From Onchidella celtica (taxonomy: Eukaryota > Mollusca > Gastropoda > Systellommatophora > Onchidiidae): DNA of 64,000 nt. The position numbers were made by a program, and so were the translations under genes. The notes under the pieces are model-generated. The model was not told the origin of the DNA, did no database searches, and was given only the letters and a program-made list of their open reading frames with translations. This document shows positions 44,592-61,421 of this stretch, one piece after another (the first letter of the stretch is position 1; each line of letters begins with the position of its first letter). Location: contig OZ007570.1 in NCBI GenBank assembly GCA_963931925.1, positions 45,835,691-45,899,690 on the forward strand, written 5' to 3'.

Positions 44592-45410
44592 TCAGTCCAC
44601 TTCTGGAGATGAGACAGTCCATTTGATAAAGACAGTTTCTTTTTCATGGACAAATCCCCTTTTTTTCAGCTCATTAAAAGTTACATCTTCAAATGAGCCT
44701 GTAGCAGTTTTAAGGCAAAATGTGGCCGGTCTACCCATCATTTCCTTATCAGGTCTCAGATGGCGCATGGCAACACTGTTTCCTTCAAACAATGGAGAAT
44801 AAGACCCTGAATTTTTATTCAAAATGAAGCCCGTGACATTAAAATACCTGCAAACTTTCAGTGACTCATTGTACAGTCCATAAATTGACAGCTGAGCATT
44901 TACTTCACCCGTTTTACTGAACCACATACTGAGCTGGACTTTACATGGGCAGCTAGAGTGCAAGAGGACAGGACTGGCTACTTTGCTGCCATTGGCAATT
45001 AGTCGATCCACTCTTCTTATCTTTAATACAGAACCTTCTTCTTGGAGATAAACACTGCTTGTCACACTAGCTGAATCAGAATCCGTGACCCAATTCTCTG
45101 ATCCCACAGAAGCAATTCTCTGCAGGTTTGACTGCTGTGGTTGTGGCACCACCAAACATGGTTCTTTATTAAACTCTAAGCCAGCACTTGTCATCCCGGG
45201 ATGTTCATCATATATTTCAAGACCATGAATACCATTCTTAGCAACTTCTGTTAGAATCACTGACAACTGTGATGAAATGTGTTCCAAATGCTGCATGATC
45301 TCTTGGTGCTGAGTTTGATTCTGCTCCATCAATTCCCTCTTTATTTGAAGAATCAAGTCAGCTGGTTCTTTGGTGGGCTGTTGAATGTAAGTCTGAGCCT
45401 GTGCAGCTCC
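44592..45410 (-). CDS. Gene A coding exon 2 (coiled coil and MATH)
   Basis: The acceptor CTGTCCTTCAG lies directly before 45410, and the frame enters as Gly-Ala-Ala-Gln. Open for 272 codons to TGA at 44594-44592. The whole MATH domain is in this one exon, unlike gene B, where an intron cuts it. Confidence 0.85.
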   Translation of the reverse strand, partial: GAAQAQTYIQQPTKEPADLILQIKRELMEQNQTQHQEIMQHLEHISSQLSVILTEVAKNGIHGLEIYDEHPGMTSAGLEFNKEPCLVVPQPQQSNLQRIASVGSENWVTDSDSASVTSSVYLQEEGSVLKIRRVDRLIANGSKVASPVLLHSSCPCKVQLSMWFSKTGEVNAQLSIYGLYNESLKVCRYFNVTGFILNKNSGSYSPLFEGNSVAMRHLRPDKEMMGRPATFCLKTATGSFEDVTFNELKKRGFVHEKETVFIKWTVSSPEVD

Positions 45411-47006
45411 CTGAAGGACAGAAAAAGAATGGCTGTAAAAATTCCATTATAGATCTGGTACTACTATAGCTAAAAATATTTGCAACGTACAAAAGAATAA
45501 TTAAAATGAAAGCTGTTTTAAACAACACTTTTTCTGAAGTGCTGATGTACTTAACCACTTATAAAGATAATTTCTAGACTTTGTTTTGATTTTTTTTGTT
45601 GATTTTAATTTAATTTTAAATGAAATAAAGTTTAGTTCTGAAAGTACCTTTGAATTTGATACAGACACAATCGTTGGATATTTGCGAACAGTCAGCATGC
45701 ATAATTACATTGACTAACATAGTGCTTCTTCCACATCAGATGATTACAACTAGCATAAATTATATTCTCAGAATTACTCTGGCTCAGTGATGAGTTTAAA
45801 GTGGCCAGCACAGGTTCCAAAGAGAGTTAATGTAACTGCTTCCAGTTAAAGACAATTTAGTGGGTCTAGTCTGACTAAGGAACAGATTTCCAAACATATA
45901 TATAATTTTACTAAAAGAATAAAAGCCTTGTTTTAACTTAATTTTACATGTGGGGTGTTAAATATGTGTTTCATATCTTGCTGTAAATATCAATGCAATT
46001 TTTAAGACATTTTATTAATATTCATTTATTTAACGTATCTATTTTTTTCTTGCCTGCAGGTAAATGGGGAATCAAGAATTCCATAACGGGGCTGGCACTC
46101 TAGTAGGCGAAAAATATTCAAATGATAAATGCAAGACAAAAAAAATTTAAATTATGGAAGAGTGAAGAATACCTCCTATAAATAAAGGTCTGTTTTTTGG
46201 CAGGTTCTTGTGTAAAATGTGTTGCACCAATATGTGGCTTATGCAGATAATGATACACCTTGAACAAACAGTTTCTAACCATGGTGCTCCTGACAGGCAA
46301 AAAGTGAAAAATAATACAGTCCTCACTGATTACAATCTGGTCACAGGATTGACACAAAGTTTGCTCATAGGAATGACATCACAATTATGCAGATCTATTG
46401 GTTATGACATTGTGCCACTGTCAGTTTGAATTTATGGAAGAAATTCACCTCTGTGGCAGTCCCGCAAACCACAAGAAAATCTTGTCCAAATCAACGTCAG
46501 ATGGATTAAGGGATGTTGGTTGGGTATAATGTCCTACCGATATGTTCAAACCAAATGATGTCATTCTTCGGATTCTGTTGTTCTTGGGGTCCTGGTGTTT
46601 GCTGAGATGAAAGCTTGAAATGCGACTGCATGCAGCCAGCATCATTAGGTCAATCAGATGTAGATTTCTGTAGGATTGGGGGGGATTACCCTAGAGGTAC
46701 TTTCCCTAACCAACATCCGCATGATGTCATAACCAGCTGATTTATGTAGGAATGATGTCATTCCTATGTACGAATTTGACGTCAATTCTTAGCATCAGAT
46801 TTCCATAGGGTTGATGGCTGGGCACAAATTAAACAATACAATTACAGGTACAGTACCTGCAAATTAGGACATAAAGGTACCTGAGCCCCTGTCGTGTTCC
46901 GAGCTGCAGCATTTTTAAATTCCATCTCAAGATGCCATATCTTCAAGAATTGATCTTTTGTGAGTCCCTGTCTTGTAGCCTCCTTAAAAGCTGTCAGGAA
47001 ATCCAT
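44592..47006 (-). CDS. TRAF/MATH-domain protein, gene A (two coding exons)
   Basis: Exons 47006-46881 and 45410-44592 join in phase 0 to give 314 aa. Residues 1-42 form a short helix-like exon MDFLTAFKEA...GLTKDQFLKIW. Residues about 61-100 are a predicted coiled coil (LQIKRELMEQNQTQHQEIMQ...), and residues about 169-308 look like a TRAF-C/MATH domain: VLKIRRVDRL, SPVLLHSSCPCKVQLSMWF, then near the end FNELKKRGFVHEKETVFIKWTV, equivalent to the D-x-x-K-x-x-Y-V-x-D-D-x-x-F-I strand of TRAFs. No RING or zinc finger is present. MATH domains bind short peptide motifs and often act as trimeric adaptors through the coiled coil; that role is inferred. The gene is a paralogue of the gene at 54610-57187 in the same orientation. 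Confidence 0.82.
45411..46880 (-). other. Gene A intron 1
   Basis: Donor CAG|GTACCT at 46880 and acceptor TTCAG at 45411. It contains two F2 repeats facing each other (46340-46520 and 46660-46835). Confidence 0.75.
46340..46835. repeat. Two F2 repeats in inverted orientation
   Basis: The forward copy at 46340-46520 begins TTTGCTCATAGGAATGACATC. The reverse copy at 46660-46835 contains GATGTCATTCCTATGTACG. Together they could form a long imperfect hairpin within gene A intron 1. Confidence 0.65.
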
Positions 47007-47056
47007 GCTGGCAGACCAGATTTTTTCAGAGAGGACTGACAGTTAGAATATTCAGC
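46881..47056 (-). CDS. Gene A first coding exon with 5' UTR part
   Basis: The coding part is 47006-46881 (42 codons, MDFLTAF...), ending at the donor CAG|GTACC. Upstream, ACTTTAATTCACAG|GCTG ending at 47057 is a good acceptor, so this exon probably starts at 47056 and a non-coding first exon lies further upstream. Confidence 0.75.
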
Positions 47057-47209
47057 CTGTGAATTAAAGTAAAATTAGGATACTAAGTAAATGTCAGAGT
47101 CATATTAAATCGAACAGTTCTGTCGCATTTTGAAAAATATTGATATTTTGAAAACAACTAAAAATGCTCTTACGTAGCTGCCCTGCCAACAACTTTATGG
47201 AAAAGACTA

Positions 47210-47362
47210 ACATCAAGTTTGCTCACAGGAATGATATATCATTCCTAGGTAGATCGGCTAGCTGGATATAACATCATGCTGACATCAGTCTCCTATGGTA
47301 TTCCTACCTACCCAGAAATCCTGTACAAATCTACATCAGACTGATGCAGGCATGCTGGCTGG
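47210..47362 (+). repeat. Interspersed repeat F2, copy 4
   Basis: Contains AAGTTTGCTCACAGGAATGA, ATCATTCCTAGGTAGATCGG, a GATATAACATCATGCTGACA block and GCAGGCATGCTGGCTGG, in the family order. It lies 36 bp from a piggyBac-type element. Confidence 0.65.
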
Positions 47363-60027: not shown

Positions 60028-60163
60028 GACAGACAGACAGACAAACAGACATACAGGTAGGCAGGTAGGTAGGTAGGTAGGCAGGCAGGCAGGCAGGCAG
60101 GCAGGCAGGAAGATAGATAGACAGACACACAGACTGAAAGATAGATAGATAGATAGATAGATA
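60028..60163. repeat. GACA/GGTA/GGCA/GATA compound microsatellite
   Basis: Successive tetranucleotide blocks of four related types; minus-strand Leu-Pro-Ala-Cys repeats are translation artefacts. Confidence 0.9.
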
Positions 60164-60444
60164 TTTATCAACTTAAAAATTTATAAACGAGATATGCTTA
60201 AATATACCAGGTAGCTTGAATCAGCCTTACTTAACAAAACATTCAGAGCAAAAACCAGGATCAGCTAATAACACATCAGTCCTGAACCACCCATGAAGTC
60301 CAACCTGTTGTGTTGTTTCCAGCTGTGCTTGAGCAGTAAAATGGAATAAAACACGGGCGTATTACACAATTATAAAGTCAGCCTGAAGAACCAGAATATT
60401 CAGCATTCACATGACTAACTGAAAGGGGGTCATTTTAAAAACCA

Positions 60445-60732
60445 AAGGTAGATAACAATTATGAAAATCAAAAGGTGGATAACAATTTCAGAAAATCAAG
60501 TGTAGGTAACAATTATGAAAAATCAAAGGTGGATAACAATTTCAGAAAATCAAGTGTAGGTAACAATTATGAAAATCAAAAGGTGGATAACAATTTCAGA
60601 AAATCAAGTGTAGATAACAATTATGAAAAATCAAAGGTGGATAACAATTTCAGAAAATCAAGTGTAGGTAACAATTATGAAAAATCAAAGGTGGATAACA
60701 ATTTTACAAACTCAAAGGTAGATTATAATTAA
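60445..60732 (+). repeat. 57-bp minisatellite with an open frame
   Basis: Two related half-units, AAAGGTGGATAACAATTTCA and AGTGTAGGTAACAATTATGA, each followed by an A-rich spacer, alternate to make a 57-bp period repeated about 4.5 times. Because 57 is a multiple of three, frame 60475-60732 stays open for 85 codons and repeats DNNFRKSSVGNNYEKSKV. No flanking splice or start context supports it as a gene, so it is listed as a repeat. Confidence 0.85.
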
Positions 60733-60944
60733 TTTTGTCCCATTCAAACTGGAAAGCTAGGTCAAAAGTGGATGGTGGGGCAAATGCCCGGAGGCCCGGA
60801 CGTCCAAGGGTGATCATGTCATGTATATATGGTTGAAAAACATCATGATTAATCATGGAATTTGCAATGACATGTGTACTTGATTTATTTATCACCCTAT
60901 ATTATATTCAAGTTCTGGTTTCTAGGAATTACCGGTACTTCATG

Positions 60945-61421
60945 TTTCTAAATAAGTAAAAGTTCTTCTTTGGTCAACCCCAATTCTTTTGAGAACAGGT
61001 TGGTCCAGAGGTAAGGTGCTCGCCTCTCGTGCCGAAAGTACCGGGTTCGATTCCCGGTCGGTGCAAGCATGTTGCACTTTTTTTTTTCGGTCGAAAAATA
61101 CCGGTCCATGATCCTATGGTAGGTAGGATAGAGCACCTAGTCTTCTCGGATGCGGACTAAATACTCGGAGTGCCCTTATGCACGTTGCGCACGTTAAAGA
61201 TACCTCGACAGTTAAAAAGTCGGGAAGATCAAGCCGAACAGCACCGCTGCCGGCAAAATTCTGAAACACTAATCCCTATCACGATCACAAAGACACACAG
61301 AAAAAACAACAACAAACAAACAAGAAAAGTGAGTTGTAAATGCCAGTGGCAGCGAACCCCCTAAAACAAAAACCCCAAACCCCAATTCTTTCGCTTTGAT
61401 TAGTGCTTTGAGAAACTCCAT
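60945..61421 (-). pseudogene. Third copy of the MATH-family first exon, disrupted
   Basis: From ATG at 61421, preceded by an acceptor-like TTAACAG, the minus strand encodes MEFLKALIKAKELG, is interrupted by a SINE (60990-61377), then continues LTKEELLLI followed directly by TAG, where genes A and B have IW and a charged helix. It therefore matches only the N-terminal exon of the family. No coiled coil or MATH exon was found downstream towards 57 kb. It is probably a partial duplication that decayed before or after the SINE landed. Confidence 0.8.
60990..61377 (+). mobile_element. tRNA-derived SINE, copy 2, with 14-bp target duplication
   Basis: The perfect direct repeat AACCCCAATTCTTT at 60976-60989 and 61378-61391 flanks the insert. 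The head has the A-box region TTGGTCCAGAGGTAAGGTGC and the B box GGGTTCGATTCCC; the body shares GTGCAAGCATGTTG, GATCCTATGGTAGGTAGGA, GCACGTTAAAGATACC and GCCAGTGGCAGCGAA with copy 1. The clear target duplication and well-kept B box suggest a fairly recent insertion. Confidence 0.92.

Follow-up and report, generated by a model that had tools for sequence, protein, structure and literature searches.

Genes A and B and their common first exon

The window analysed here is a stretch of 64,000 nucleotides of the Onchidella celtica genome, located at C4:45835691-45899690 in a 1.14-Gb assembly. It contains two genes, A and B, whose products are most likely TRAF-like adaptors that lack a RING, as judged by sequence and by analogy with known TRAF proteins. 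An earlier note, made from the letters of this DNA alone, had placed the two genes in one orientation with a common phase-0 first exon. This observation was borne out as a whole when the exon borders were read from the DNA, the joined exons were translated and the two products were aligned. Gene A (47006-44592, minus strand) encodes 314 amino acids and gene B (57187-54610, minus strand) encodes 477. Every intron of both genes is of the GT-AG type, and both first exons end in CAG/GT in phase 0. The predicted exons, together with the remains of a third first exon (fragment C), are as follows.

46881..47006, minus strand: gene A exon 1, 42 codons for the predicted N-terminal helical module, phase-0 CAG/GT donor
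44592..45410, minus strand: gene A exon 2, encoding a predicted helix, a linker and the C-terminal TRAF/MATH domain (from ~45083), with the stop
57044..57187, minus strand: gene B exon 1, 48 codons for the predicted N-terminal helical module, phase-0 CAG/GT donor
55761..56745, minus strand: gene B exon 2, putative helical region, linker, first half of the TRAF/MATH domain, phase-1 donor
54610..54914, minus strand: gene B exon 3, remaining half of the TRAF/MATH domain, tail, stop
61380..61421, minus strand: fragment C, a broken first exon, first piece, encodes MEFLKALIKAKELG
60939..60992, minus strand: fragment C, second piece, encodes SKELGLTKEELLLI*KHE, with the stop at the conserved Trp position
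60990..61377, plus strand: tRNA-type short interspersed nuclear element (SINE) within fragment C, its ends placed by the duplicated 14 bp at 60976-60989 and 61378-61391

The two proteins align over their first 31 residues with 55% identity (E=5e-8) and over 162 residues at their C-termini with 30% identity (E=1e-17). The first exons score 92 against each other, where the mean of shuffled sequences was 20.6 and none of 2000 shuffles scored as high.

Fragment C (61421-60939), noted previously as a broken first exon upstream of gene B, is real, its two pieces being separated by the SINE with its 14-bp target-site duplication. A second copy of this SINE, at ~53303-53682, was used in the alignment. 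No MATH piece was found between fragment C and gene B by tblastn with A and B. Positions 60448-60715 of the window hold a minisatellite with 5.0 copies of a 54-bp unit (94% matches).

A tandem array and two unlinked members

The genome search with protein B returned 17 matches at E<=1, all of them on the minus strand of C4 between 45.880 and 46.016 Mb. Protein A returned 17 matches at E<=10, with 16 in the same stretch and one on C6 (E=7.7, with a stop). The stretch holds eight units on one strand over ~135 kb (A, B and D to I), and in each of them a first exon with the module is followed by an exon that carries a MATH domain. Five of the units (D, E, F, G and I) have a single open frame of 504-632 codons that ends in the MATH domain. 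All eight modules have a stop codon in frame upstream of their ATG. Runs of N mark assembly gaps at positions 52392-52591 of the window and in the gene H exon near 45.985 Mb of C4, the latter hiding part of the H MATH domain.

With the first exon of gene E as query, nine places were matched at E<=10, namely the eight exons of the cluster and C17:21472969 (E=0.036). The latter, member J, has a 600-codon frame ~2 kb downstream of its module, and this frame ends in a MATH domain that matches Pfam MATH_2 at E=1.3e-5 for the domain and 2.0e-4 for the frame. The J module in turn matched C17:13616579 (E=0.0048), itself and six exons of the cluster, eight matches in all at E<=10. At C17:13616579, member K, a 727-codon frame less than 1 kb downstream of the module also ends in a MATH domain, which matches MATH_2 at E=2.8e-4 when taken alone and at 0.0069 within the whole frame. 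K also matches meprin beta (E=0.0029). A MATH-ending frame is thus found downstream of both off-cluster module matches. The K module, used as query, recovered itself along with J (E=0.0025) and gene A (E=8.75). When a hidden Markov model (HMM) of the cluster modules was used, J scored 35.9 bits and K 28.8 bits, against at most 11.9 among 4000 shuffles; with the HMM of the cluster MATH domains, K (14.2) and J (10.5) scored above all 2000 shuffles (best 6.8). Long open frames of tandem repeats, in several reading frames, occupy C17:21462600-21465000, ~8 kb upstream of J.

The family, as recognised by sequence, is at least ten genes, with eight in a same-strand tandem row and two elsewhere, and the proposal that it has multiplied in this genome holds. 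The match counts are lower bounds, and the family count may have passed over members whose module is absent or has diverged. As a sequence handle that already led to the unlinked J and K, the module may be used in the same way in other animals.

The C-terminal domain

A profile built from A and B found one match among 177,635 distinct PDB sequences, the TRAF domain of TRAF4 (E=0.0065). The 26 best Foldseek matches of the gene A model, itself of low confidence, were all TRAF, USP7 or SIAH domains, and a TRAF chain ranked first in each of the profile and fold searches. Together with the MATH_2 matches of J and K, these results support the assignment of the C-terminus to the TRAF/MATH domains, with a TRAF-type beta-sandwich as its probable fold, as the earlier note had read it. 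The Pfam model PF00917 matched nothing in this genome; it also matched nothing in 14 control genomes, so this search is uninformative. Queried with TRAF4, the genome gave six matches at E<=10, to TRAF-like loci on C10, C3, C7 and, at two places, C11. Since the cluster genes were absent among these matches, the cluster is additional to the ordinary TRAFs.

The N-terminal module

Alignment of the ten members showed conserved residues at M1, F3, A10, G14, F20, I23, W24 and E27. The module of ~30-48 residues carries the signature M-[DE]-F...A...G-[LVI]....F..IW..E and reads as a short helix, a G-[LVI] turn and a long helix. The AlphaFold2 model of the B module places helices at residues 3-12 and 17-46 on either side of a turn, with a mean predicted local distance difference test score (pLDDT) of 86.9. 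We therefore describe the module as a predicted helical hairpin.

The first exon had been taken for a domain of no recognised kind, and this description stands: no Pfam family scored above its curated cut-off, and the PDB gave neither a sequence nor a fold match better than chance. Foldseek with the B module model gave a best E of 2.0, and PDB sequence searches with two and with eight modules gave best E values of 0.038 and 0.74, both to unrelated proteins. NCBIfam contained nothing relevant, and no relatives were confirmed in viral contigs or prokaryote genomes. The nearest Pfam family was SinI (PF08671), which is bacterial. The module resembles the SinI anti-repressor hairpin in its short helical pattern, and sub-threshold matches were seen in seven of the eight cluster modules. 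However, the best of these (E=5.7e-4) spans 14 residues and scores 20.0 bits against a curated cut-off of 31.4, so membership of SinI was rejected. The combination of this module with a MATH domain was not described among the matches listed in a search of literature titles and abstract starts.

A different origin for the module would be capture from the N-terminus of a Ty3/gypsy gag protein. The helical patterns look alike by eye, and gag N-termini are present both in the window and on C17 near J. However, a nine-member module HMM ranked two gags 493 and 991 of 998, no better than shuffles, and A and B, each paired with the gag of the window, scored under the shuffle means. With the two gags examined, neither profile nor shuffle tests supported a gag origin, which we consider highly improbable.

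The central region and the known MATH proteins

In exon 2 of gene A, AlphaFold2 drew a long helix at residues 17-60 with moderate to low confidence. RING domains and TRAF zinc fingers had been reported as lacking, and Pfam agreed for nine of the ten genes (H left out): none was matched at E<=10 in A or B, nor at E<=0.1 in the frames of exon 2 from the seven genes D, E, F, G, I, J and K, within gene models to which 5' exons may yet be added. Astacin protease, MAM and BTB domains likewise had no Pfam match in A, B or these seven frames.

The family resembles the TRAF proteins in that a C-terminal TRAF-C/MATH beta-sandwich follows a predicted helix, with TRAF4 the nearest by profile and TRAF5, TRAF4, TRAF3 and TRAF2 the nearest by fold. 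Unlike them, it is very divergent and carries an N-terminal helical module in place of any detected RING or TRAF zinc finger. TRAF1 has no RING and keeps a zinc finger; the family, compared with it by fold only, resembles it in the missing RING. Meprin, SPOP and USP7 are related to the family through the MATH fold, and K matches meprin beta, but the scanned family models had no Pfam match to a protease, BTB or USP domain. As a case of many MATH genes in one animal, the array recalls the expansion in planarians, for which 121 MATH domains, found with Pfam PF00917, are reported (PMC6109357). The present cluster, in contrast, is missed by the Pfam MATH models.

Selection among the paralogues

The ratio of nonsynonymous to synonymous substitution rates (dN/dS) in the MATH domain is 0.40 for D-E and 0.46 for D-F. 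In six older pairs with high dS (pair G-I left out) it is 0.23-0.42. The linker has a dN above that of the MATH domain in the pairs D-E, D-F and E-F, of which E-F is the closest. These values bear on the alternative that A and B are decaying pseudogenes, to which the broken fragment C nearby would lend some colour. We regard this as very unlikely, since A and B have open frames and GT-AG introns and the MATH domain appears constrained in most paralogue pairs.

The helical part is nearly identical among D, E and F (dS 0.05-0.10), whereas D differs from E or F with a dS of 0.59-0.65 in the MATH domain and of 0.45-0.65 across linker and MATH. This contrast, which the pair E-F lacks, hints at gene conversion or recombination that involved D and affected the 5' half.

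A proposed role as adaptors

We propose that these genes form an adaptor family of ten or more members with divergent TRAF/MATH domains, to which, taken as a whole with the function outlined here, we assign a probability of about 0.6. Along the chain, the module is followed by a helical-looking region, a low-complexity linker and the C-terminal TRAF-C/MATH beta-sandwich. By analogy with TRAF biology, the hairpin and the helix would assemble the chains into an oligomer, and the linker would let the MATH heads spread. Each head would then bind a short peptide in the tail of a receptor or adaptor, with avidity. Because RING and TRAF zinc fingers were not found, the chains would serve as scaffolds or compete with canonical TRAFs, and would not be ubiquitin ligases.

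Several results weigh against this proposal. Taken singly, A and B had no MATH match in Pfam or PDB at E<=10, and Pfam gave no MATH match at E<=0.1 for the whole open frame of D, E, F, G or I. TRAF-mep_MATH matched one of seven cluster MATH domains, at E=0.14. The gene A model has a mean pLDDT of 44.8. The MATH matches of J and K lie below the Pfam curated cut-offs, the J C-terminus alone had no match among PDB sequences at E<=10, and the part of J exon 1 that was examined has no in-frame CAG/GT, a border that differs from the cluster. In gene H the frame stops before the assembly gap and the MATH domain is incomplete. For all family genes the exon joins are predictions from DNA, so that extra 5' exons are possible. 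A crude heptad score was no better than that of shuffled sequences, 62 of 300 of which reached the score of A and 223 of 300 that of B. The coiled coil of the earlier note is thus weaker than stated, although AlphaFold2 draws a long helix there, and the oligomer becomes the weakest link of the proposal. The earlier interpretation is supported in part, namely for the TRAF/MATH C-terminus, the unrecognised first exon, the missing RING and TRAF zinc fingers and the multiplication in this genome; that the family is undescribed, expanded in one lineage and immune or signalling in function would be further possibilities. Finally, the MATH dN/dS of the pair E-F is 1.26 (23.7 nonsynonymous versus 5.3 synonymous differences; one pair).

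This last ratio, the raised linker dN and the tandem arrangement would also suit an immune family under arms-race selection, in which fast-diverging RING-less TRAF decoys or sensors bind peptides of pathogens or of the pathway. In oyster, four of 15 TRAFs are reported to be paired and some to respond to bacteria (PMC4346834). However, the high ratio comes from a single pair, without a significance figure, and the MATH dN/dS of the remaining pairs is 0.23-0.46. We consider this possible but on the unlikely side.

MATH domains also occur outside the TNF and TLR pathways, and the proteins might instead be non-immune scaffolds of cytoskeletal, centrosomal or developmental function whose MATH domain binds cargo or mediates self-association. 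In favour of this, a Cep57-like match was seen below threshold in gene I (E=0.046), but this match is weak and may reflect helical composition alone, and nothing else points in that direction. Such a role seems doubtful.

An extension of the adaptor proposal would be that the previously unnamed hairpin marks out a family of animal adaptors with MATH domains too divergent for Pfam, so that MATH expansions are undercounted, with the array here supplying RING-less oligomeric TRAF competitors that tune TNF/TLR-type signaling. We offer this tentatively, as an unlikely reading in its full form. MATH expansions are often counted by Pfam-type searches, and since Pfam misses the TRAF fold of the tandem genes, such counts may be too low. 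According to Kaur et al. (2021, PMC8195603), organisms with expanded TRADD-N domains have no matching expansion of MATH domains.

Other features of the window

A vestigial-like gene lies on the minus strand at 25629-29729, with Pfam matches to Vg_Tdu (E=1.2e-15) in 28650-29729 and to the TEADIR3 motif (E=9.9e-6) in 25629-26000. A Ty3/gypsy element on the minus strand, from position 1 to ~4200, has a long open gag-pol frame that is ended by the window edge. Open frames resembling those of long interspersed nuclear elements, of reverse transcriptase or RNase H type as judged by eye only, are present on the plus strand at 43231-43827, 61722-62495 and 63200-64000.

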